A DNA stretch of 64,000 bases from Owenia fusiformis (Eukaryota; Annelida; Polychaeta; Sabellida; Oweniidae): NCBI GenBank assembly GCA_903813345.2, contig CAIIXF020000009.1, positions 5,574,030 to 5,638,029 on the forward strand, written 5' to 3'. A program made the position numbers and the translations under genes. This document shows, one piece after another, positions 5,186-54,800 of the stretch. A model generated the notes under the pieces. That model ran no database searches. It was given only the letters and a program-made list of their open reading frames with translations, and was not told where the DNA came from. The first letter of the stretch is position 1; each line of letters starts with the position of its first letter.

Positions 5186-6725
5186 TCAATAATATTACAA
5201 TGCAAGACATCTTAAACATGATGCATCAGTATAGCATTAAATGGCGCTTCAATTATCATCCGGACAAATGTAAGGCCATCATATTTAGTAATAGTCGTGC
5301 CACTCAACAGGCAGGAATAGACTTACAACTTGGAGGTCGTACAATAGATGTAGTCCAAACAACACAACATGTCGGCCTTCCAATGTCGAACTACAACAGT
5401 AATAGAGAACTGATAGAGTCTGCACTATCAAAAGGAAAGAGAGCAATGAATGCATATGTTGGGACAACAACACACACCCAGAACCCAACCAACCCCCTCA
5501 CTGCGTCTAAGTTATATTGGTCTGTCAGTATGCCTTCTATGACGTATGGAATGGAACTTGTCCCCCTCAGTGAAACCGATTATAAGATGCTCGAGCAGGG
5601 ACATAGAAGTATCTGCAAACAACTACAAGGCCTGCCAGTAACCACATCTGACCCAGCTGTCCTACCCCAACTAGGCTGGCATACTATGACGGCGACTATA
5701 GTAGTGGCTAAAATGATGTTCCTGCTACAACCTCTATCTCATGTATCAGGTTCGATCTTCCGTACCATAGCAATAAAGCGTATCACGAAGTTCAGATATG
5801 ACAGTAACCCGCTACACAAAATGTCACCTATTGGTGACATAATGACACTCGCATCACGGTTTGGCATATCAAACGTGATATATGAAATGATGGACAGTGG
5901 TGAAGTTCCCCCCAAAACTACCTGGAAACGATATATTAGGAATATAGTAAGGACTTTTGAATACAACATGTGGAGAAGAGAACTTATTACATATCATAAA
6001 TTAACATTATACCGAACTGTAGTCACTAGTACAAAACCGTTTGCCTGGTGGGAAATAGCTAGGCAGGACTGTAGATACATTAAGAGATGCACCCTGATGG
6101 TACGACTGCTCACGGGTCAAGGAGAACTCCGAGCTATTACCGGTGAGTGGGAAAATATTCCTGTGTATGATCGCATATGTGGAATATGTGACATGCAACG
6201 CATTGAAACTCTGAAGCACTTCATCTTGGAATGCCCAAGATACTGCTCATTAAGAACAAATACAACAAATATATTACATATAGGATACCCAATGGGAGAC
6301 ACATGACTTACATACTGAAGCTACGGTGCATATTTGGAGGAGATGAGACTCTAACAAACGAAGATCTTAAATGCATCTCAACAGCTGTGCAAAATATGTA
6401 CATTCTAAGGATGGAGTGATACTGTAACACGAAACACCAATCAGGATGTCAACAAAGAGGCGTGATTGGCACTCCTGGTGATGTCCTAGACAACTGCTTT
6501 TGTATATAATTTCCTTCTCATTTTGAAATCGTAATGGATCGCAGAGTGGTGCAGTGGGACCCCCAGGGGAGAACATGGGCTAACCAGGGGGGTTCTGCTG
6601 TATCAATGCTTTCCGCTTGTCTTTGTATTTTTATAAATCTTTATTTTTATTACTTTTATTATATACTCTAATAATATATTATCTCCATAATTGGAGGGGC
6701 AATAAATATAATAATAATAATAATA
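5186..6725 (+). mobile_element. 5'-truncated LINE inserted in a repeat unit
   Basis: The insertion interrupts one of the roughly 350-bp units of the surrounding element: unit sequence ('ggatacatcactgt', 'ggatctataaaatgatat') stops near 5,185 and resumes after 6,725. The inserted piece has an ORF2 C-terminal coding region, a 3' UTR of about 400 bp and an (AAT)n tail at about 6,705-6,725, typical of non-LTR retrotransposons with simple-repeat tails. The 5' truncation removes the endonuclease and the catalytic YxDD part of the reverse transcriptase. Confidence 0.8.
5200..6306 (+). pseudogene. Non-LTR retrotransposon ORF2, C-terminal part
   Basis: The 368-residue open frame begins just downstream of where the YxDD catalytic box of a LINE reverse transcriptase would lie. 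Its first 35 residues match the usual post-catalytic segment (N-x-Y-H-P-D-K-C-K, then F-S-N-S-R). It continues through the thumb region and ends with a cysteine-rich motif C-x2-C-x7-H-x4-C near residues 322-338, typical of LINE ORF2 tails. The starting ATG is probably an internal methionine exposed by truncation, so this is a dead fragment. The intact 1.1-kb frame suggests a fairly recent insertion. Confidence 0.8.
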
Positions 6726-31456: not shown

Positions 31457-34400
31457 CTACCGATGCATGCCCAAAGGTCTGCTGAATGCAGAAATGTGCA
31501 TTTCCTTTGTATTTCCACTCGGAAGTCTAGATGATCCATGTTCATAATTTGAAAGACTGTCTGGGAATAAGCCTGGTTTCATTAAAGGGTGGGGTCCCCC
31601 TAATGGCGTTGTCCCTAAACCATATCCACCGGGGGTTATGGGTGACACTATCTCAGGTAGTAGCTGGGGGAGTTTGGTGTGGGGTTGTGACATCCTTGGA
31701 ACGACGATATGTGGCGCCACTGTCTGAGATTGCGCACGTGATACGGAGTAAGGTGAAAATCTTATTGGTTGACGAGAAGTCGCAACAGTGGTTCCGGCAT
31801 ACGGAAGCCTCCCAGTGGGCGGTGGCACATGTGACTCATTATGTAGAAGACTAACGGTGCTTGTGACACTAGAGGGATGGTCAGTTACTGTTTGGGTGGT
31901 GGATAGAGCCGGTGTGCTTGTTACTGGACTGCCTTTTTTGTTGCGATACATATTACCGCCACTAACCGACGCATCTGGTCGGAAACGGGTCCGTAGGTAA
32001 CTGACGATGCGCACGCATCGTGTATTGTTAACATCGATACCTTCAACATCAGACATGTAGTTAATGATTTGCCGCATGCAATCACTGTATCCAGTTTGGT
32101 AGTGATGCATGAAATCCGTCCACACGTCTGAACTATACCAATCACCTGTAACAAAATTAAAAGTGCCTTAACTTTTTTTCTTTTTTATTGAAATCAATGT
32201 AACATATTAATATTTACAGTTTGCAGTGGCTATGACACCCAAGAGGGAGTATTAGGTGCCACAGTGTGTGTTTACAATGATTTGTGATATATTATAAAAA
32301 GTGTACATGAAATCGCGTAAAGTATGATATTGTACATAAGTGAGAAAATAAACTGATTTGGTGAAAATGGTATACAATATGTATAGCATACTACCCTGCG
32401 TGCAAAGTCTAGTTAAACTACACGACGGAGCTCTCTTTTAAGAAGTGAAGTCCAACGAATGCAAAGGGTAATAGCATACTATAATGCGGTGCATATAAAT
32501 AGTACGGGAACCTGGTGCGTGGCAAGATGGTCACCTAAGCAAGACATGTACAAAGTCTCGTCGAATTCACTCATGATAACAAATCCAAATCATTCACCAA
32601 TTTTGGCTCACAACACACATGGGGTTTCTCCTTTTCAACGAGATTAGTTAATGTTATAATTGGGAGACAACTGTCATGAACCATTCTAGGTCCACACGAC
32701 CATTTTGCCCAAGGTCGCCCTATATTAGTCCCAAAAGTAAAAACGTACCATTTTCGAATCTGGTCCCAATCTCGGTAGACTGTATTGCTCTTAAGTATTC
32801 GACTGTCATCTCAAGAATTTCAGCCTTTTCTAGTTTTCCCGAAGACTGGAAAATAAATATTATACGCTATATATACCAAGCCCTATATTTAAGTTTTGTG
32901 GTACTAGAGATAACATCATGTAATTAGTTAGTTACAATTAGAGTGTCTAACGTTACAAATGTATGTACAAATTTAAAACGATTTAAGACAAAGTGAGGTC
33001 CTAATTTATCATTAAAGACATAATAAATGTGACATCTTTTACTGAAGTTCACGAGGCACGCTATTTTTGATGAGTTTTTTCCCTATTAAAAATTCACCCT
33101 TTGTAATTTATTTAATGATTTAGAAGTAATTAACAAGTTGTCAATGGGCATGGTGGTTTTAGATGTGGCTGGGGGAGAAGTAAAGTCGGATAAAACATAC
33201 GTTTTTTCAGATTATCTTTGGGATTGGCGCGTGTGCGGCGTGCGCGTCACAATCGTGCGCAAATTGTACATGCGCGTGTCAGATACTACACTCGTGTGAG
33301 CATATACATTGGAGTGTCCCTATACACCTGAATAATTATGATAGCGACAGAATACAAGGGAATCCATTGTCTCTTTGGTATAATGACCCATATATAGTCT
33401 TTTGATACTGCTTTGTCTGTGTTGTATGGTTTCCTGCGAAAAAAACTTTCTTCCGTACACTTCTTTAGAATTTGAACCAATTGGGTTTGTAGAACCAGAT
33501 TTCTTGGACTCTGTGGAAGAACTAACTTATGAACAGTAATGAACCAAGACCTACTAGTATAAAGATAACCCATTTGAAAGATAATAAATAAACTACATGT
33601 ACTTGTCGTACCAAATAAATCTGATCTGTTTACAGTGTGTGTTGTTGTTGTGTTGTTGTTGTTCTGAGGATAGAAATAAATAAGGAAACAATAACATGTT
33701 TATTTCATCTCGTTTGTAGTGCGTTAACATCCCAATAAAGTCTTAGTGAGAAACATTAGTCGGGATAACATATTGACGTCAGGCCCTGGAACGTTGTTGT
33801 TGGACGTTGTTATCTGATTTTATTAAAAGAATCAGATGAAAGGGCGTTTTCTTTTTTGTTTTACTCAAAATTCAAACGCTAATTACACATCGGGTCAAAT
33901 TAAAATATCCGAGCAAAATTCTGTATTTCGGGTTATTGGATTTTTTTCATTTTAACTGCGAATGTTATTATAAAAAAGCCTTTTCACCTGGTGCTTTTAA
34001 AAAGAAAACAATAAATAAAAGATTGACCTTTTAGGGGACTACTATTTACATTAACTTCACTTTATCTTAATAAAACCTGTTACGTCCCCGCATAAATTAT
34101 CATGTCGGTGGTAACGTTTTTTTTTATTTCTGAAAAGAGAATTATGAAAAATATGCCAAGATGTGACGTACATTAAAAAAGTATGAAATCAGAATCTTGT
34201 GATTTTAGAAAAGAATGAAGTCTGTAATCGATTTTACAAGAAAGTGTCACGGAAGAAACAAGACATTGGCCTCATTTTATATTGAGGTAATATAAAAAGT
34301 AGGCCGACATTATTGTGATTAATGTGCATATTATGAACGTATTGCTCATTCACTGAACGAAACGGCACTTCCCGCTGAAATCACCGGGTATTGATTTTTC

Positions 34401-39893: not shown

Positions 39894-42800
39894 ATGGGTG
39901 AGTTGTTCCGCAGTGAGGAGATGAGCCTCTGTCAGCTTTACCTGCAGACAGAGGCAGCTTACGCATGTGTCTCAGAGCTTGGAGAATTAGGGCTTGTCCA
40001 GTTTAAAGATGTAAGTTGTTTTTCCTCTTCCAGCAAGTTTTGTTTAACTAGGTAATGCACAGGCAGGCCCGTAGCCAGGGGGGGGGGTTCTTTCAAAATC
40101 ATGCAGTTTTTCACCATTCTGAGCACTTTTTAAGTGATTTTGGCCATATTTGGACCAAAATTGTCAGAAGTGAACCCCATTGGAATTTTTCAAAAAGTGA
40201 CCCCCCTCCCTTTGGCAAATGCTGGCTACGGGGAGGATAAGTGTAGCCAGGTTTGAGGTTTGTGGGGTTTGAGGTTTGTGGGACACCAAGATATTAGTTC
40301 CTATTTTTCAATTTTACTTAGACTAATTATCAATATATCCTCACCTATTTTTAATTAGAATATCTAAATTCCTTCAGAAAAATGAATACATGAAACCACA
40401 TTTACCTGTAAAATAGCTAAAAGATGAAATTCATGGACCTTTTATATATTCCCCCCTCTCCCCTGGCACCAGTAAAGTTGGCCAAAAGTGGTGTTTAATT
40501 TAGAAACAATATAATATATTACTTAGATATGCAGGTTTTATATAATCTTTTTGTTTATGTATAACATGTTTTTTGTACATTTAAAACACAGATCATGTTT
40601 GATATTAAATTAACTATTGTATTCCTGTAAATGTTTCTAGCTGAACCCAGAGGTAAATGCTTTCCAACGAAAGTTTGTGGCTGAAGTTAGACGCTGCGAT
40701 GAAATGGAGAGGCAACTACGTAAGTTGACTTTTCAAAAGCCTATCAGTTATTGATTTCTGTGGACAAGTGGGATAAAATTGATTTCTGTGTTTTTAAATA
40801 ATTACAAGACAATGTTTGCTCTCCTTAAAATTCTTCATGTTCAGTGTAACCATACTTATGTAATATATTAGGTGAGATCCTTTTGGATGGTAATACCAGG
40901 TCCTGTTTATATTGATCGATTTAAAGCTTAGTCAATAGTGTAGGTCACAAGAATATGTAGCACAGGCACATATACAGTGAACCTTGTTTTAGTGAAACCT
41001 GTGTCTTGTGGACACCCTTGTCAGCACATACCTCATTGACTTTTGAATAAAATCACCTATCTATAGTGACCCCTAGGCTACCTACAGTGAACACATTTTT
41101 GTGGCTCCATAGGTGTTCACTAACACACAGGTTTTATTGTATGATGTAATTTCAGGTTTCTTTGAGGGTGAGATTAAAAAGGAAGAGATAAAATATGAAC
41201 TGTCTTACCCCAACCCAGAGGCACCCTTCCCCAGGGACATGGTCGATCTGGAGGTAAGAATTTTAGTCATTGAGATGTACAGCGTTTGTGAATAAATGAT
41301 TATGCCTCAGTTACATTTGATCTACGGCAACCGTATGGTTTCCCAAAATGGACATTTACTCTATCAGTAATCATTTGTTCAGTGTAAAAATGTGACTTTG
41401 AATTTCCAGGAACATTTTTTCATGGGACGCATTTTTTTTTTTGGACAAACCTACTGAAAGCACTGTCTATGTATGTCTGTATTTGCAATGAAGGCTAACA
41501 ACCATAATGCATTGCAAAGACTCTTTAAGTAGAGTTTCTGGGTGTTTCATACTGTGTTAAGCAATAAAGAATGAAAATAGCAAACTTACAAAGAGTTACT
41601 CTAGTAAGTTAACCTTTCAGCTATACTGTATATACAAATATTTTCAGGCTACATTTGACAAACTGGAGAATGAGCTGAAGGAAATCCACAGTAATGCAGA
41701 GACGATTCACAAGAATTATAATGAGCTCACTGAATTGAAATATGTGCTTCGAAAAACTGCTGATTTCTTCGAAGAGGTGAGGGATATTTAAAGTGTGTTA
41801 GAATTTTAACATTTACATATACATGTATGTCACTTCATTCACAAGCAACTTTTGTCACATTATTCACAAGAATTTATTATTTTCTCATATATTTTACCTC
41901 ATTGTATATATCTCAGTGAATCTGAGCATTTATTTATCGTAAGTTAGGGTAATTCATGCATTGAATATTTTAGGTCTCGAAATATTTTTATATGAACATA
42001 CCTGAAAGTCAAGTTTATAATTGCTTTCACACATCACATACATGCAATCAATTTATGAGGAAAGATGATAAATATTTTTTGTCCACTTTTTGTGTAATTT
42101 ATATATCTGGTTGTGTTAAAATATTGCTTCATCAGACTTAAATTTTGCAATCACTTGCTCAGTGTGTAAATCAAACATTTGCATGTGCAAATCAAACACC
42201 CAGTGTGTAAATCAAACATCTTAGTCTGTAAATCAAACATCCAGTGTGTAAATCAAACATCTTGGCGTGTAAATCAGACATCCAATGTGTAAACCAACCA
42301 TCTCCGCCTGTAAACTAAATATCAGTTGTGTAAATCAAACATCTCTGTTTGTAAATCAAACATCCAGTGTGTAAATCAAACATCTCTGTCTGTAAATCAA
42401 ACATCCAGTGTGTAAATCAAACATCTCGGCATGTAAATCAGACATCCAATGTGTAAACCAAACATCTCCGCCTGTAAATTAAAAATCAATTGTGTAAATC
42501 AAATATCCAGTGTGTAAATCAAACATCTATGTCTGTAAATCAAATATCCAGTATGTGAATACATGAAAAGATATTTCGCTTTTCATGATTTACAACAGAA
42601 GTCACATTATCAAGTCATATTTTCAAAGAAAACTAAAATTTCAAAGTCAATAAACAATTTTTTAAACCACATTTCTAGGGATAATTTTAAATGTAGATTT
42701 CTTGAATATTTGATGACGTAAATCAAGATATTTCCCCTCGCATCTAGTCTATGGAGTTAAATTTTTACTCTCTAATAGTCAGCATCTAGTAGGGCCAACT

Positions 42801-45800
42801 AATAGGGACACGGAGTAATGTTTTAACAATTATGGGGCACCCGGCATATTTCCCCATATAAATGCAGCAAAGTTAATACTAGTTCCCATTTGTAGTCTAT
42901 GGGGAGCTTTTCAAATCCTATGGCCCCATTTAGAGACTTAATGGTTAAAATGTTGGACGTATTTGCTTGTAGCGCCCAAGAACAGGGAGTATTCTAGAAG
43001 AAGCAAAAGATGCATTGCAGCAAGACTATCAGCTTAAAGATATGTCTGATCGGGACAATCCCTTGCGACTTGGGTAGGTCTACCAGTAGATCCCCCACCC
43101 TACCCCCTTCAAGATACCTCCTATCACATAGTGGCCATGGAAAAAAATGTTTTTTTTTCTATTTTGAAGATTTAAACTTAAGAAGTGCTTGTTTTAAGCC
43201 AGTGAACATTAACTAAATTGAGGATATTCTGTGGCCAATATGTTGATTTAAAATCTGGATTTCCCAGAAAGCATGTACCCTCCTCTCACTTGACCTTGAC
43301 CTTTACACAGCTGGTAGCCTCAATAAATCACTTGACCTTGACCTTTACACTATCCATTGAATTGCCCCAATAAATCATTTGTATACATTTGGAAGCTGTA
43401 TTCTTCAAAAAATTGAATCCTTGTTTCAAGAACCCTTAACTAAAACCGAACAAGGTTGGTTGAAATAAGGCCAAGCAAAATAATGCTTAAAATCAAATAA
43501 ATTTTCAAAGCTTATTATATTTAATTAACCATGAAGAGAATGGTCTTTTTTTCTTTTTACCTTAGTAATATTTATTACAATACAAAACTTGAAAAATAAT
43601 ATATAATTATAATTTGTGTAAAGAAATTTATTTCTGATGAAACAAATATTTAACACTGCTTTGCCTAAATAAACACAAAATTCTAATGAATTGATTGCAT
43701 ACCGTGTGAAAAAATAATTAAATTGTAAAAATTCTCAAGACATTACTACTATGGTGATCTTTTGATTGAGTATAATTTGAAGATGACACAAGGAACCTTA
43801 GAGATACTGATTCACATGTACATGAGTTATGATAAATGTTTAAATTATTGGGACAAGGCTGACAACAATGATACACACTTACAATAAGTGATATCTTATC
43901 AGTGGTCTAGTGTTGTCAAATATTTATAACAACTGCTATGAGTTCAAAGGTTCAGCACTGAGTTTGATATTACATGTCATTTGTATTTGTATTTTCTGTG
44001 TGAACTATATTGTATTTTAAAATCAAGTTCTATTGAATTTTTCTCCTTTTGAGGATATTTACTTGAAATATTTCTAGGAATAATTATTGTATAGAAAAAT
44101 ATTTTATAAACTACTAAAGAGAAACATGTTCTTTAACATTATATATATTCAGGTTTCATATGTTCGGCTTTGAAAAACCTTTTTTGAAAGTTTTATTTGA
44201 AAACCCCATCTTTGAAAATTATTGAAATATTTGAAATACTCAACTTTTATTTTTTAATACTCAACTTTGAATTACTTTGAAATATTCAATAATGACTTAA
44301 ATTAGCTTAAATTAAATTGTGTTGAAATGTTTAACATTTAATTACTTTGAAATAGTCAGCTGTGAATCACTTCAAAACACTCAACTTTCATAACTTTGAA
44401 ATCTTCAACTTCAAATTATTTTGAAATATTTCAATTTTAATTTGAAATACTGAACTTTGAATTGCTTTGAAATACTCAAAGAATGGGTATTGATATGGCG
44501 AACTTTTTGAACACATGTTTCTCTTAAACCAGTCATCAAAAATATCTGAAAATCTTACAATTTGTCAATGTAATGGCCATCTTTTGAATGGTAACAATAT
44601 AATTTGAAATAGATATACATACTTTCATCTATATTGTTTTAAAAAACACATCAAACACTTGTTATGTTCTTGGTATCATGTTTCCAGAGTGAAATGAAAC
44701 ATCTTTCTGAACCTCATTGGAACAAAACAACATAAACAACATGTTTAGGTCTCTCAATATTGTAATTTTACAAAGGAAATTTTGGTTGATTTTAAAAAAG
44801 TATCTTGTTAATGAAATAAAAGGTTTTTCTTGATTTTTATCTATTTTGGGGGGATTTTGTTTTAATGTTTTGAATACTTTTTTAAAATCAACCAAAAATT
44901 CCATTGTATAACTTTAATATTGAGAGGTCTAAAAACATGTTGTATATGCTATTTTGTTCCAACAAGGTTCGGAAAGACGTTTTATTTCATTCTCAAGAAT
45001 TGGTAGAAAGGAGTAAAAACAATTGCACTAAAAAAACAAAAAATGTTAACAAAAACAGTTATATAAAATATTTCTAAATAATTTTCGCATTAAATTGTTG
45101 TCAATCAGTCAACATTACATAAAATACCATGTTTTTTACAGAATGTTTTCAATGATTGGTTTAAGAGAAAAACATTGTTGAATTCAGTTCTCCATATCGA
45201 TACCTATCCTTTGAATTACTTTGAAAACTCAACTTTAAATCACTTTGAAACATTCAACTTCAAATGACTTTGAAATACTCAACTTTGAATTTGAATTACT
45301 GAACATTGAGTTACTTTGAAATGTTTAACTTTGAATTACTTCATCAATACTCAGCATTGAATAACATTGAAATACTCAATTTTGAATTACTTTGAAATAC
45401 TCAACTTTGAACCTGCTAGGGTCATGTTAGAGAGGATGCTCCTAAGAGACTTGCAGATCAGGCCCCTGCCAGTGGCATCCAATCATCATCAGAGAGGACC
45501 CCTCTACTCAAAGGCCGCCCTGCCCAAACGCAGGCCATAGAGACCGTCTCCACCATGGGGTATACGCTAATGTTAAGATTTATGCATAATATATGTTCTG
45601 TGTTAGCACTTAGGTTGAGTGTAACATTGGCCATGTCTCTTTAAAATTGAATGGATAAAAATAATATCCCTCAAATATCATATTCTATGTGTCTCCTATT
45701 AAGTGAATAAAGGACAAATAAAAGCCCTTGATGAGGTTCAATTTCTTGGGCAATCTTATCATAATAAGTTTGTTTAAATAAGAATGAATTTAAGTACTGT

Positions 45801-48800
45801 TCAAAATTTGAATTAAAGACACATGACTAGTGTAATATTTAACATAGGACACTGGATGGAACCATTTATACAAAAAGAAATTTGTTCAGAGTTAAGGAAA
45901 TGATTAAGTAAATAACTAAATAATATTTGAACTAATTGTGTTTTTGTATAATGGTTCTCTACAGTATAGTGCTTAAGGTAACTAAGAGGTGTCTGTTTGA
46001 AAAATTAATTTCTATTTAGGCAACGGAGAAAACCCCATTGGTCCAAAATGATTCAACGGGTACAATCCATCTGGGGTAAGCCCCTTAGCTGTGCTCCAGG
46101 CTTGCCCCACCTCTCCCACATGCCTTATCACACTGCTCATCTTTTTTTCCTACTTTTTCTGCTCACCTATCCTTTGCTCACTTTATTCTGCTCACCCTCT
46201 CTATCTTCTACAGAATTGAGCCATGGACTCATATTAACATAGGTTTATCACTATTCACATTTAGTTTAAAATTTTAACATAGAATTCACCATTTTATATG
46301 CAGAAGAGAAGATTACATGCAACAATCCCAATTTGGTATATAAGATATGATATCTTCCTCCATGCACTCCCTACCTGCATGGAATATACTTCATATCTCA
46401 TACTCCCAGAAACACTCCATAAATATTTTAATGCATGGGGCTCCTCAGTTTGAAATCTATTACTTGTAATTTATATTTAAACTTTCATAGAGCAGTTGCA
46501 GTTTTGTATCTTCAAGAATATTTATATTTCAGTTACAGTAAAACATGTAAAGGTCGATCTAAGTGGAACTCAGGAAGCATCCCGCTTTCTCATAATTGTA
46601 CCATTTTGCATTGAAGATATCTGTCAATCATATAGAATGGTTTTGAGACTGCCATCTGCATCGATCACTATTACCACCCCAAAACCACAAGTTTTTACAC
46701 AGGGATTTAACAATATTTTTTTGGCACATGATAAGACTGGGTATCCAAATATTGAATTTTCAAATTTTCTTACAGGTTGGAGTGCAATGATGTTTTTTTT
46801 CTTTTTAGTAGAAACTGTAGCTGTTGTATAAAATAATAACATGTCAACTGGTTCTTATTATTTTGACTGGTACATTAAAAATTCTTATATCGCACCCCAT
46901 TGACCTATGTCTTTTTCCTAACGGCACCAAGGAACATGGACTTGATGAAGTCTCAGATATGTTAACGCATCCTACGTCAGACAGGCGCCATCTGGTGAGC
47001 CCTGTGGCATCACGGTATGAGACAGAGACTCATTTGGGGTAAGAGAGTTGGTGTGAATCCCCGCAACATTTTAATTGGTGCATGGATAACATTTTTATTT
47101 TGCGATCTAACTTTCTAGTCTAGAATACTATATGTTGGTATTTTGTGTATTGTTTTCCCGTCATTACCAAGAAAAGGTAACATGTTGTCATAGCAACAGT
47201 CCTTTGTTATCAGCATTTAGTATTGGCACTTGGCATTTGTAACACATTGTTTTTTAAAACCATTTGCAGTAGGCCTGGCATGGGACAGAATGGATTTCTG
47301 CACTTGCCTTTAGAATTTCAAACTTCTATTTTAAATATGTTGCATATACAACTCCAGATTTCTTTTACTTCTGATCATTATGGCGAATGTTCTTTATGGA
47401 ATATAATAAATTCTGAAAACATCAGAAAGTAAGAAGGCAGTTCCAAAAGTCCATTTACAAAGGTAAAATAGGTCATATCGAACAATGATTCTGTTCCGCA
47501 CCAGCCCTAATTTGCTATATTTTGCCACATTTTGTCATGTTAATGCCATATTTTGCCATGCTAATACCATGTTTTGCCATGTTAATGCTATATTTATCAT
47601 GTTAATGCCACATTTTGCCATGTTAATGCCTTGTTTTGTTTCTTACTTGCATGTTTCACAGGCCCGTAGCCAGGATTTGCCAAGGGGGGGTTCAGTTTTC
47701 AAAAATTTCCAGGGGGGGTTCACATTTGACAATTTTGGCCCAAATATGACTAAAATCACTTGAAAAGTGCTCAAAATGGTAAAAAACTGCATGATTTTGA
47801 AGGAATTTTTGGCCTGCGAACCCCCCCCTGGCTACGGGCCTGTTTCATACATTAATGTTTGAGATAACATGCATGTCTTCTCCTTTCTGCATGTATTTAT
47901 CAATACCCAATTTCCATCTGTTATGCAATTTTATTACAGGATATTTATAATTTGTATTTTAGTTTATGCATTTTAGTCTGTGTTTGATACACACTGTGTT
48001 CATGATTTGAAGCTTTTGTATATTTTTGTAGCATGTAAAAGCGCTCTTTTTTAGATAGTGTATTGATAGCTTGGTTTTGCTATTCAGCTTAAATATTAAT
48101 ACTGTACTTGTATGTAAAGTGCAGTTATAGGTAATAAAAATGGCTGACTTACTTGTTGAAATTATCATTATGGAAGGACTACTTTGTGAACAAAATTTAT
48201 ATTTTAAACTCTTTGATTTTTATGTCACCACCAAAAGTGGTGACATATTGTTATGGTCTCCGTTTTTTTTGCGACGGCGTCCGGCGGTTGGTGGTTGGTG
48301 GTTGGCGTCCGGCGGTTGGCGTCTGTAACAATTTCTTACAACTTCCTATAACTTAACAAATACTGTTTAGACTGACTTCAATTTTTTTCTAAATCATCTA
48401 CATGTTCTCAGAAGTTCAAATCTGACTTTAGATTTGACATTTGACCTTCAATGACCTTCTCAAGGTCAAAAAGGTCTTTTTTCAACTTGCTTCACATTGA
48501 CTAAATTTTTTTTCAAAATCATCTACATGTTCTCAGAAATTCAAATCTGACTTTAGATTTGACATTTGACCTTCAAATCTGACTTTAGATTTGACATTTG
48601 ACCTTCAATGACCTTCTCTAGGTCAAAAAAGGTCAAAAAGGTCTGTTTTCAACTTGCTTCAAATTGACTAAATTTTTTTTTCAAAATCATCTACGTGTTC
48701 TCAGAAATTCAAATCTGACTTAAGATTTGACATTTGACCTTCTCAAGGTCAAAAAAGGTCAAAAAGGTCTGTTTTCAACTTGCTTCAAATTGACTAAAAA

Positions 48801-51800
48801 AAAATTTCAAAATCATCTACGTGTTCTCAGAAATTCAAATCTGACTTTAGATTTGACTTAAGATTTGACATTTGACCTTCAATGACCTTCTCAAAGTCAA
48901 AAAAGGTCAAAAAGGTCTTTTTTCAACTTGCTTCAAATTGACTAAATTTTTTTTTCAAAATCATCTACATGTTCTCAGAAATTCAAATCTGACTTTAGAT
49001 TTGACATTTGACCTTCAATGACCTTCTCAAGGTCAAAAAAGGTCTGTTTTCAACTTGCTTCAAATTGACTAAATTTTTTTTTCAAAATCATCTACGTGTT
49101 CTCAGAAATTCAAATCTGACTTAAGATTTGACTTAAGATTTGACATTTGACCTTCAATGACCTTCTCAAGGTCAAAAAGGTCTGTTTTCAACTTGCTTCA
49201 AATTGACTAAAAAAAAATTTCAAAATCATCTTCGTGTTCTCAGAAATTCAAATCTGACTTTAGATTTGACTTAAGATTTGACATTTGACCTTCAATGACC
49301 TTCTCAAAGTCAAAAAAGGTCAAAAAGGTCTTTTTTCAACTTGCTTCAAATTGACTAAAAAAAATTTTCAAAATCATCTACATGTTCTCAGAAATTCAAA
49401 TCTGACTTTAGATTTGACATTTGACCTTCTCAAGGTCAAAAAAGGTCTGTTTTCAACTTGCTTCAAATTGACTAAAATTTTTTTTCAAAATCATCTACAT
49501 GTTCTCAGAAATTCAAATCTGACTTTAGATTTGACATTTGACCTTCAATGACCTTCTCAATGTCAAAAAAGGTCAAAAAGGTATTTTTTCATCTTGCTTC
49601 AAATTGACTAAATTTTTTTTCAAAATCATCTACATTCTACATGTTCTCAGAAATTCAAATATGACTTTAGATTTGACTTTAGATTTGACATTTGACCTTC
49701 TCAAGGTCAAAAAAGGTCAAAAAGGTCTTTTTTCAACTTGCTTCAAATTGACTAATTTTTTTTTCAAAATCATCTACATGTTCTCAGAAATTCAAATCTG
49801 ACTTTAGATTTGACATTTGACCTTTAATGACCTTCTCAAGGTCAAAAAAGGTCAAAAAGGTCTGTTTTCAACTTGCTTCAAATTGACTAAATTTTTTTTT
49901 CAAAATCATCTACATGTTCTCAGAAATTCAAATCTGACTTTACAAGTTCTCAGAAATTCAAATCTGACTTATATTAAGTTTGAACTCATAATATTGTGAG
50001 CAACTAGGTGGTGACATTTTGTCATGTTAATGCCTTGTTTGTTAATGCCAGCTGTTGAAGTGATTAGAAATTAACTGTGAACTATTGATGGTCTAGAGAA
50101 TTGTTGGGTTTAGATAAATCTTCCAGAAAAAAGCTTTGTTTTATTTTATTTTTTTTATTATTTCATTGTACAGTATTATTTCAAGGGTGGGTAGATGTTG
50201 ATATGTATGCAGTAAAAATGTAAACTCAGCAGCTGGGAAAGAAAACAACTGATAAAAACACAATATTTAATAATTATTATTTTCTTCACTTTATACATGT
50301 AAGATCTAAAGTTGTAGAATTATCTCGAAGCCATTATTGAAATGTAAACTAACAGTTATTTAGTGAATGTGAACATTATTCCACATCCTATTTTCTATAT
50401 TCCATACATGTATTTTAATGGTTGATCATTTTTTCTCTGGACTACAGGTTTGTTGCTGGGGTCGTATTGAGGGAAAGAATGGCGGCTTTTGAGCGTTTGT
50501 TGTGGTTTGCGTGTCGCGGCAATGTCTACATCAAGACAGCTGAGATTGAGGAGCTTATTGATGACCTTGGCACGGTATGTTGATGTCACCCTTATAGGAG
50601 CCTTTAGTGACACACATAATTCCCATCTTGTTATGGGTTAAATCAGGCAAAGGAGTGGTATCGATATGGAGAACTTTTTGAACACACGTTTCTCTTAAAA
50701 CAGTCATGAAAAAAATCTAAAAATTTAACACATCATCAATGTTATGATCATCTTTTGAATGGTAACAATATAATTTGAAAAATATATATATATACTTCCA
50801 TCTACATTGTATATTGTTTTAGAAAACACATCAAACACTTGTTTTGTTCTTGGTATCATGTTTCCAGAGTGAAATGAAACATCTTTCCGAACCTCATTGG
50901 ATCAAAACGACATATTAAACACAACATGTTGTACAAAGGAAATTTTGGTTGATTTTAAAAAAGTATCTTTATTTATCTTGATTTTTATCTATTTTGGGGG
51001 GATTTTGTTTTAATTTTTTGAATACTTTTTTAAAATCAACTAAAAATTCCTTTGTATAACTATAATATTGAGAAATCTAAAAACATGTTGTATTTGCTAT
51101 TTTGTTCCAACAAAGTTCGGAAAGACATTTTATTTTATTCTCAAGAATTGGTAGTAAGGAGCAAAAACAATTGCACTAAAAAAACAAAAAATGTTAACAA
51201 AAACAGTTATATAAAATATTTCTAAATAATTTTCGCATTAAATTGTTGTCAATCAGTCAACATAACATAAAATACCGTGTTTTTTTACAGAATCTTTTCA
51301 ATGATTGGTTTAAGAGAAAAAGTTGAATTCAGTTCTCCATATCGATACCACTCCTTTCCCTATAATTTGGGATAATTTTTAAATTCCTAAGTTTTTATTA
51401 TTTAGATATTCAGGTGAGACCATGATTAGCCCTTGTTTTATTTCTTAAAGGTAACATTAAATGATCAAGCAGAAATTATTCTATCCAGGAAAGTGTTTTC
51501 ATTTGGGGCCAATGAACTCTCTATAAAGCTTTTAAAATGATTCAGCCTCAAAATAACTGGGACGAACCTTTTCCCTAAGAACTCAAAGATTAAGATGCAT
51601 AATAGTTTCAAAACAGATTTGTTCACATACCATATTCCTCCTATAGCTGGTCCATGCATTGTTTTAATAAGACTGGTTCTACTTAAACAAGTATCTGAAT
51701 TCCTGATGTGTTATCACCCCACCCCCCCCCCCCCACCCTCATTTTCCCCCATGCAGAGTGAGACATTTTATATGAAACATGAATTTTTTTAAACTACAGG

Positions 51801-54800
51801 GTGAACCAGTGCAGAAGTCTGTGTTTGTTGTGTTCTTCCAAGGGGAGCATCTCAAGACTAAGGTCATGAAAATATGTGAAGGGTAAGTGCATATGAACAG
51901 TCAAATCGATCTGTTGAATATAGACTCTAAAAGGGACATATCTTACATCAAACTGCTCCTTGTCACTTTAACTCAGGGAATGTGAAAAGGTGATCTTTGT
52001 ACATATCATATTACACCAAATTAAAAAACATTTATGTAGGGGAGTTTGGTGGGTTGCAGGTCAAATCAAGGATGGTCAGGTCATAGGTGAATTGAATAAT
52101 CACATTCAATCTGATGATACATTGGTCATCTGTGAGCGAAATTTACCTGCTACTATATCTGAGTATTGATGATGCATTATGGGTATATGTGACCAGTATT
52201 TACTCCATATATAATGAGTATACAGTAAAACCTGTCCGAGGGAACAACTCTCTGTAAGGAACAACTTTTTTTCTTTTTTTTTTTAAATAAGTTAATATTT
52301 TATCAATATTCTAACTTGATACTTATGCTTCATATGAACTTCAACTTGAAAAGACAATGTTTTAAAGAGTGTAATGTTGTTTTTAACATAGGTTCCGCGC
52401 CACCCTGTACCCTTGTCCAGAGTCATTGGCTGAAAGAAAGGAGATGGGTGTCGGTGTTATGCAGAGACTGGAAGATATGAAGACAGTAAGTACACTCATG
52501 ACTGAGTACAGAGACCAATGGCATATAGTTGCCGACATCTATTAAATACAACTGTTGTATTTTATTTTGACAAAATGTTCAATTGTATTGAAAATCAACA
52601 TTCAGATACGTTTATTGTATTGTATATTAATATAAACAGACATGTATTGTATTGTAAATCAACATTCAGATACATTTATTGTATTGTATATTGATATAAA
52701 AAGACATGTATTGTATTGTACATTGTATTATATATTAACAGAACAAAAAAATCATCTACTGTGTATACCACTTTTAGAAAAGTGGGACCAAAAGAATAAA
52801 TTAAGAAATAAAAGGATAACATTGGAATGTTTAACCCTTAGGTTCTTAACCAGTCAAAAGAGATGCGTGTACGTGTGCTGACATCTATCTCCCAGAACCT
52901 AGAGTCATGGTTTGTGAAGGCGCAGAAGATCAAGGCCATTTACCATACCATGAACATGTTCCGAACAGACAACAAGACGTACATTGCCGAATGCTTCTGC
53001 CCTACCAAGGATCTGGATCTTGTCCAGGTCGCCCTGAGAAGAGGCGGGGTAAGTTATCTTTTTACCAGCAAAAGTGATACCATTTTACAAAAGCTCAGCA
53101 TTTTTATTGTTTAAATAATTTATTTCATTAAAACATCATATCTTACTGAGTACATATATGTGTTACCTACTCTTTTGATTCATTGATCTATATTTAATAA
53201 AATATTCAGCCAGAAAATTGTGAAATTACATTTTCTGCCCATTTAAATAGGTAACATTCACTTCGAATTCAAATTTCTATAATTATAAATGCCATGACAA
53301 TTACATTTGAAATTAATAAGTTTAGATCAAATCCACAATAGAGGGAAAAAATGAAGACTTCAGACTTTAGGGAGTTGTTTACTTGTATTACAGCAGTAAA
53401 CCTATTCATTTACATGATAATCAAAGAGGTTCCTTTCATGTTGAATCATTTTGAAAATGAAATCATGGAATTATTTAGTCCAAAGTACTAGTACATAATA
53501 CAAGTTTATTTTGAGTAGAAATAAAAAAGAATTTAGTACAAGTAACAAGACAATACAAGTCACTTCATGTATAGAGTACACATAAGTACAAGTAAATACA
53601 AAGTTCAAGTAAATGTTTGTTACAAGTAACTGTTTACTACAAGTACATGGTAAATGCCTTTTTCAGGAGAAGAGTGGTAGCACAGTGCCATCTATCGTGA
53701 ACACCATTCCAGCCACGTCCTACCCCACATATTTCCGTACCAACAGATTTACACTAGCTTTCCAGGCAATTGTAGATGCGTATGGTATAGCATCATATAG
53801 GGAGGTGAACCCAAGTAGGTGTTCAGTAATTATGTGCAGGCCTCTAGCCAGTTTTTGTCACTTTTATAAAATTCCAGGGGGGGCTCACGATGACAACTTT
53901 TGCCAAAAATCACTTGAAAAGTGCTCAGAATGGTGAAAAACTTCATGATTTTGAAAGATTTTTTCCCCCCACTGGCTTCGGGACTAATATCTTAATAAGC
54001 TAGTGTAAAAACAGGGATTCCATTTTTTGTAAATTAAACTTCTTTTATTTAACCTCCTTAATAAAAGTGAATTGCATTCATATAAGGTTCAGAAAGTTAA
54101 ACTTATTGTTCCTCCACACAACGTATTTTGATGTATTTCAGCACCCTACACAATCATCACATTCCCCTTCCTGTTTGCCATCATGTTTGGTGACTCGGGG
54201 CATGGTCTCATCATGTTCGCCTTTGGTCTCTGGATGGTGGTCTACGAGAGAAAGCTCAGCAAGGGCAGAAGTGATAATGAGGTAAAGTGATATTGAGGTT
54301 ATGATAATGAGGTAATATGATATTGAGGTTATGATAATGAGGTAAAGTGATATTGAGGTTATAATAATGAGGTAAAATGATATTGAGATTTTAATAATGA
54401 GGTAAAATGATATTGAGGCTATGATAATGAGGTAAAGTGATATTGAGGCTATGATAATGAGGTAATATAAGAATGAGGTTGTGTAGCCTAATAATGAAGT
54501 AATGCACTTATGAGATGTAGATTTAATGATATATAACTTTCCTATGTAGATTTCAAATATCTTTTCGACTTAATTTAGAACATTTGATATTGTAAATCAG
54601 AATTATTTCAACACAACTTCAATGTTGTCTATATTATATATGTTTTCAATATTTTCTTTTTATGCATGCTTTGGTGTATTTCAGATATGGACCACGATCT
54701 TTGGAGGCCGCTATGTCGTATTCCTGATGGGATTGTTCTCTATATACACTGGATTTATATACAATGATTGCTTTTCCAAATCATTGAATATATTTGGATC

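Follow-up and report, generated by a model that had tools for sequence, protein, structure and literature searches.

The closest described system to the locus treated here is unc-32, the V-ATPase subunit a gene of C. elegans, whose exons 4a-4c are described as mutually exclusive and tissue-regulated (PMC3585155). Here, we analyse a 64,000-nucleotide (nt) stretch of DNA of the annelid Owenia fusiformis (GenBank assembly GCA_903813345.2, contig CAIIXF020000009.1, positions 5,574,030 to 5,638,029 of the forward strand; hereafter 'the window'), in which a V-ATPase subunit a gene contains four candidate variant exons within a single intron. The parallel with unc-32 had been drawn in a preliminary description of this DNA and is a real one, as judged from the account of exons 4a-4c in the same source (PMC3585155).

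Splice variation of subunit a is also on record in mammals. Alternative splicing of ATP6V0A1, the gene of subunit a1, is neural and listed as SRRM4-dependent, with the exon left unidentified in the relevant parts of both sources (PMC8638120, PMC13387927), and two rat a1 splice variants are reported to reach different places in neurons (PMC2835735, citing Poea-Guyon 2006). A literature search over titles and the starts of abstracts, with subscription journals mostly uncovered, returned no cluster of such exons in a subunit a gene outside C. elegans, and a search joining Vha100-1 with 'mutually exclusive' gave no match.

Judging from sequence, we consider it fairly probable that the four candidates form a mutually exclusive cluster that replaces one cytosolic segment after residue 141, perhaps one with a sorting signal. 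Exclusive use of at least two of the four exons is very probable, and the chances that all four are used in this way are about even.

The host gene and the reading frames of the candidate exons

The subunit a gene occupies the plus strand of the window from 39,894 on and reaches at least 59,400. Its 11 constitutive exons were placed via AG/GT boundaries and, when joined with variant exon 1, yield a product of 487 residues. Residues 1-484 of this product align to PDB chains of subunit a (best score 663 bits); the alignment output names molecules only, and chains called mouse, human or mammalian in this text are taken to be so. The gene belongs to the V_ATPase_I family (PF01496), with Pfam matches exon by exon, most of them above the cut-off. 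Sequence similarity to subunit a runs through the N-terminal half into the beginning of the membrane part, and the first coding exon is at 39894-40010 (+).

Two constitutive exons enclose the cluster. The upstream one (41648-41776, +) ends in ...RKTADFFEE, in phase 0, at residue 141; the downstream one (50448-50574, +) opens with G FVAGV and requires two bases. Between 41,776 and 50,448, an intron of 8,671 bases houses variant exon 1 (42973-43073, +; 101 nt, 33 residues), variant exon 2 (45420-45559, +; 140 nt, 46 residues, containing ERTPLL), variant exon 3 (46020-46075, +; 56 nt, 18 residues, containing EKTPLV) and variant exon 4 (46932-47038, +; 107 nt, 35 residues), the residues being followed in each case by GG/gt (the slash marks the exon end). 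All four candidates have an AG acceptor and a GG/gt donor, are entered in phase 0 and left in phase 2, have lengths of 2 modulo 3, and terminate in Leu or Met plus Gly ahead of FVAGV. The coordinates, phases, lengths and splice-site ends given in the preliminary description were all reproduced, as was its placement of the replaced segment directly after residue 141. The segments are on average polar and without cysteine, and the swapped part, 19 to 47 residues long, may be a flexible loop.

All 16 inclusion patterns of the four exons were translated through the 11 joined constitutive exons. Those that stay open are the four single-exon patterns (4/16), as expected of a mutually exclusive set. 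The pattern with no variant exon stops after 155 residues; with two, three or all four exons (six, four and one patterns, respectively), translation ends after 170 to 214 residues. The stop lies in the next constitutive exon for pairs 1+3 and 2+3 and in the second variant exon for pairs 1+2, 3+4, 1+4 and 2+4, only the first two of which had been noted before. In the full set, length modulo 3 is restored, yet a stop occurs within exon 2. Because every other pattern stops early, inclusion of exactly one exon is the sole productive choice, and the earlier statement that exactly one exon keeps the frame thus holds for 16/16 translated patterns.

Chance expectation, splice sites and composition

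To gauge chance occurrence, we scanned for stop-free AG...GT segments of 45-160 nt, 2 modulo 3 in length and ending in [LM]-GG/GT. With no score threshold, the intron contains four such donors, precisely those of the four candidates; in the controls, there are 5 (plus strand) and 0 (minus strand) in window positions 1-36000, and 2 on the antisense strand of the intron, or about 0.75 per 8,671 nt. When thresholds are placed slightly below the scores of the weakest candidate, the count is 4 vs 1, 0 and 1 in the same controls, with about 0.2 expected. Positions 1-36,000 may hold real exons of other genes, in which case this control rate would be conservative.

These counts bear on the simplest alternative, under which the gene has one normal exon at this place (exon 1, the nearest to the a1 pattern) and the other three are chance open segments or unused pseudo-exons. 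Exon 1 indeed ends in PLRLG, like the a1 chains, and codon usage separates none of the four exons from shuffles; when the scan is relaxed to segments ending in GG only, without threshold, the count of 7 vs about 4.3 expected is no clear excess. Set against this are the four [LM]GG/GT-ended segments where about 0.2-0.75 would be expected, the fact that exon 3 rather than exon 1 has the best splice sites, and a repetition of the design in a second subunit a gene (see below). We regard the single-exon alternative as highly improbable.

Splice sites were scored with a matrix derived from both subunit a genes (23 donors, 24 acceptors), so that the scores of the constitutive sites, obtained on a matrix made from themselves, are flattered. 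By rank, the donor and acceptor of exon 1 fall in the top 2.0% of GT and the top 17% of AG of the window; those of exon 3, the best of the four, in the top 0.6% and 10%; and those of exon 4 in the top 0.9% and 45%. Support for the candidates is uneven, being fair to good for exons 1 and 3, reduced by a weak acceptor for exon 4, and weak at both ends for exon 2, whose donor ranks in the top 24% and whose acceptor ranks in the top 73%. These sites make exon 2 the least certain of the four. Regulated exons are expected to have weak splice sites.

Several observations weigh against a functional cluster of four. The [LM] condition and the thresholds were chosen after the exons had been seen, so the filter is partly post hoc, although LG precedes FVAGV in the a1 chains as well. 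With the GG-only filter there is no dependable excess unless thresholds are applied (5 vs about 1.4 expected). Acceptor scores of exons 1-4 are 2.2, -5.9, 3.7 and -2.0, and the weakest constitutive acceptor scores 5.7. If both sites are required to score at least 3, the only ones of the four to survive are exon 3 and exon 4 in a longer form. On splice scores alone, unrelated segments stand above some of the exons in both subunit a introns (47358-47428 in the window; L001:1619-1683 in the second gene); the former, 71 nt long and ending in AA, outscores even exon 3. Exons 1 and 3 lie under the 95th percentile of GC content for their length, and only exon 2 exceeds the 99th. In each of the four exons, phase 0 has the best codon usage of the three sense phases, but scores are not separated from those of stop-free, composition-matched shuffles (frequencies 0.56, 0.31, 0.41 and 0.89 for exons 1-4); as there is no coding signal beyond base composition, codon usage is not used as support. 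Finally, mutually exclusive exons are usually similar in length and sequence, as products of tandem duplication, although this is not obligatory, and the candidates, at 56 to 140 nt, differ 2.5-fold in length.

The longer form of exon 4 would use an acceptor at 46821 (score 6.0) and is 218 nt long, open and likewise 2 modulo 3; its extra peptide is hydrophobic and looks intronic.

The unevenness of the sites suggests a second alternative, a smaller cluster in which two or three exons are real and exon 2, possibly along with exon 4, is a decoy or relic. The weak sites of exon 2 and the weak acceptor of exon 4 agree with it, as does the second subunit a gene, which showed just two such exons. 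On the other hand, exon 2 has the sharpest composition contrast of the four, with a GC content of 0.571 between flanks of 0.27 and 0.29 (above 0.564, the 99.9th percentile of 140-nt windows of the intron), and it has the same ending as the others; moreover, an exon of the same design in the second gene has a donor about as weak as that of exon 2 (1.2 vs 1.4). A smaller cluster appears rather unlikely to us.

The second subunit a gene and likeness among the exons

A genome-wide Pfam search, in which 55 of 57 first-look candidates were scored, gave 25 subunit a matches at two loci, that of the window and one on contig 1 (G000:C1; the part of this paralogue analysed is L001). For ten of the 11 constitutive exons, identity to the paralogue is 53-85%, the first exon lying outside L001; the exons just upstream and downstream of the cluster are 65% and, across 39 residues, 67% identical to their counterparts. 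In the homologous intron, at the same position and with the same phases, the paralogue has two segments of the same design: C1A (L001:2720-2826; AEIHHQAMNDPALSEENVGLLGEDGLRAGGQALRL+GG/gt) and C1B (L001:3938-4023; KEQNVAEEAQHAFESDRSQIIERQPMQL+GG/gt), both 2 modulo 3 in length, entered in phase 0 and ending in LGG/gt. The donor with a score of 1.2 mentioned above is that of C1B. An unthresholded scan of the paralogue intron found no third [LM]GG donor, so that two exons are seen there and four candidates in the window gene.

The acceptor of C1A is a tandem one (2720 or 2738), and use of 2738 would drop AEIHHQ. This is of interest because C1A is clearly similar to the a1 segment of PDB chain 9bra (local score 65; 0/3,000 shuffles as high), with AEIHHQ aligned to the AELHHQQ of 9bra, which is missing from the other four printed a1 chains (7u8o, 6xbw, 6wlw and 9b8o). 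The match between AEIHHQ and AELHHQQ suggests that variation at this junction is common to mammals and this animal, and we infer that the difference between the a1 chains reflects alternative splicing. None of the four exons of the window gene matches the a1 segment in the way C1A does.

Indeed, the exons are barely alike, unlike the usual sets of mutually exclusive exons, a further point against the cluster. We compared 21 pairs by a shuffle test after removal of the last two residues (15 pairs when the a1 segment, presumably of mouse, is left aside), and C1A with the 9bra segment is the only pair beyond doubt. The best of the six pairs within the window gene, exons 2 and 3 (ERTPLL vs EKTPLV), has a shuffle frequency of 0.010, and exon 1 with C1B, by a 13-residue stretch vs NVAEEAQHAFESD, one of 0.014; both are suggestive, yet neither stands once corrected for the 21 pairs. 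Searches with tblastn between the variant exons gave no match below E 1. As the constitutive exons match the paralogue and the variants hardly do, either the alternative segment changes at a much higher rate or its exons were each recruited on their own.

A transposon origin of the exons was considered and set aside. In a genome search with each of the four (exon 3 extended by 5 flanking bases per side), the sole match was the exon itself, so there is no sign of a transposon; this falls short of proof, as the search skips very common words.

The preliminary description had proposed that this animal may diversify its pump by splicing where vertebrates use four genes. This idea is partly fair, as subunit a matches were found at just two loci of the genome. 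It is too simple, since the paralogue has a like cluster, the a1 chains vary at the same junction, and Drosophila is said to have five subunit a genes (PMC8541823).

Repeats and other open frames were also recorded in the window. A tandem array with a 148-bp period and 10.1 copies (48572-49942, +) extends the intron between exon 4 and the exon at 50448. Two similar element copies, recognized by eye, have ends resembling long terminal inverted repeats (GGTATCGATATGG...); one (about 44490-45200) lies between exons 1 and 2, with its inner arms recovered in an inverted-repeat search, and the other (about 50660-51345) in the intron after 50574. Three introns of the gene contain similar fragments of what looks like an interspersed repeat with GGCCCGTAGCCAGG-type ends (about 40064-40230, 47660-47850 and 53850-53985), again by eye. 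Another array, of 30-bp units in 7.0 copies (54272-54480), starts inside the last part of the constitutive exon 54142-54281, whose AATGAG/GTAAA-like end it reiterates, so that possible donor sites are multiplied. Outside the gene, an open reading frame with a Hairy Orange domain (31457-32125, -; E 8.6e-07) is perhaps an exon of a Hes/Hey-type transcription factor gene, and a 368-residue open frame (5200-6306, +) has no Pfam match at E 0.01 and, from reading, may be the end of a retrotransposon polymerase.

Exon choice, sorting and comparison with known systems

In the mechanism we propose, one exon per transcript would be chosen by tissue-specific splicing factors working on weak splice sites. 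Products with none or two of the exons carry early stops and would probably be cleared by nonsense-mediated decay, in which case the reading frame itself would enforce exclusivity. The gaps between successive exons, 2,346, 460 and 856 nt, are too large for steric exclusion; the introns between the exons are GT-AG. Docking and selector pairing of the Dscam type was also looked for; the intron has 187 inverted repeats, of which the 25 longest belong mostly to the tandem array and to one element, with nothing interpretable among them.

A lead to regulation, and only a lead, is the RBFOX-type element TGCATG. The intron contains 8 copies vs 2.56 expected (first-order Markov control), and no 8,671-nt block of window positions 1-39800 has more than 5. 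Seven of the 8 lie after exon 3, among them one at 47079-47084 (+), 41 nt beyond the end of exon 4, and one at 47788 within an apparent interspersed repeat. Part of the excess may be a matter of composition, because the opposite strand of the intron is also rich (5 vs 1.3 per block outside). None of three CELF-type motifs is enriched in the intron of the window gene; in the paralogue intron, TGTTGT occurs 7 times vs 2.56 expected.

What the choice of exon does may be approached through a1. The mammalian alternative segment occupies the same junction, from FFDE or FFEE to (R)LG/FVAGV, and the a1 chains read ...LRLG/FVAGV at the matching place. In V0a1, Tyr23 and Leu147/Leu148 have been mutated as tyrosine and dileucine motifs, with impaired AP-2 interaction (PMC5344305). 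When residues are counted on the a1 chains rather than on that study's construct, Tyr23 falls in place, position 141 is taken by the E of FFDE, and Leu147-Leu148 correspond to the LL of MADPDLLEE, within the segment that is alternative here. The V0a1 numbering fits the short form, because with AELHHQQ positions 147-148 would be QQ. A swapped cytosolic loop would, on this model, carry or lack an adaptor-binding signal of the dileucine type, and the pump would be retargeted accordingly. The strict pattern [DE]xxxL[LI] is found in exon 2 (ERTPLL), in C1A (ENVGLL) and in the a1 segment of 9bra, and is absent from exons 1, 3 and 4 and from C1B.

Against such a role stand the frequencies with which shuffles contain the strict pattern (2.6% for exon 2, 11.7% for C1A and 16.6% for the 9bra segment), the match of every variant but exon 1 to a relaxed pattern, and the lack in C1A of LL at the place of Leu147-Leu148. 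Since shuffles yield the strict pattern and the relaxed one is nearly universal, the dileucine contrast may mean nothing. A sorting role of exon choice, the function we favour, is put forward tentatively. A somewhat more doubtful alternative is that the cluster is real and exon choice alters regulation of the pump, that is, its assembly or its binding of lipids or partners. In its favour is an account of the N-terminal domain as a regulatory hub whose loops respond to lipids (PMC10313074); the passages concerned place no lipid site in the segment, however, and the AP-2 work favours sorting (PMC5344305).

The comparison can be widened to bilaterians in general. Under the widest reading, a splice switch at one fixed junction of the N-terminal domain would add or remove an adaptor-binding sorting signal throughout the Bilateria, its form varying by animal: a heptapeptide that is present or absent in mammals, a set of three exons in nematodes, and two and four exons in the two genes of this animal. 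One rule, with phase 0 in, Leu-Gly out and exactly one exon per message, would have governed exons that share neither sequence nor length, whether these were recruited or arose by divergence. We hold this reading to be quite unlikely. The targeting of V-ATPases to particular membranes is still poorly understood, and if it were true that one junction serves pump targeting by splicing across animals, the exons would be natural test pieces in which a single loop is changed. As the spliced segment overlaps Leu147-Leu148 of the AP-2 study, a concrete experiment becomes possible. The unlikeness of the exons also bears on the origin of mutually exclusive exons that are not plain duplicates.

Among the known systems, mammalian ATP6V0A1 shares the junction with the window gene, its variation lying right after FFDE. 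The two differ in form: seven residues are present or absent in a1, whereas the window gene has a choice among whole replacement segments. The paralogue, with the same intron position, phases and LGG/gt-type ends as the window gene, is closest to a1 in sequence through C1A. With unc-32 exons 4a-4c, the window gene has in common that it encodes subunit a and has an early cluster of exons, here probably mutually exclusive; unc-32 has three exons (PMC3585155) and the window gene four candidates. The RBFOX element TGCATG acts in the choice of unc-32 exon 7, and the exon 4 region is described, in the part of the study bearing on it, as having no (U)GCAUG and no RBFOX regulation (PMC3585155), in contrast to the TGCATG-containing intron of the window gene. 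A second alternative region like that of unc-32 exon 7 was sought with tblastn in window positions 36001-62000 and in L001, which is part of the paralogue, and no convincing duplicate of the 11 constitutive exons was found there. On the best reading, the cluster is a relative of unc-32 exons 4a-4c and of a kind already known; what sets it apart is the number and heterogeneity of its exons, the parallel cluster in a second gene, and the link to the mammalian a1 segment.

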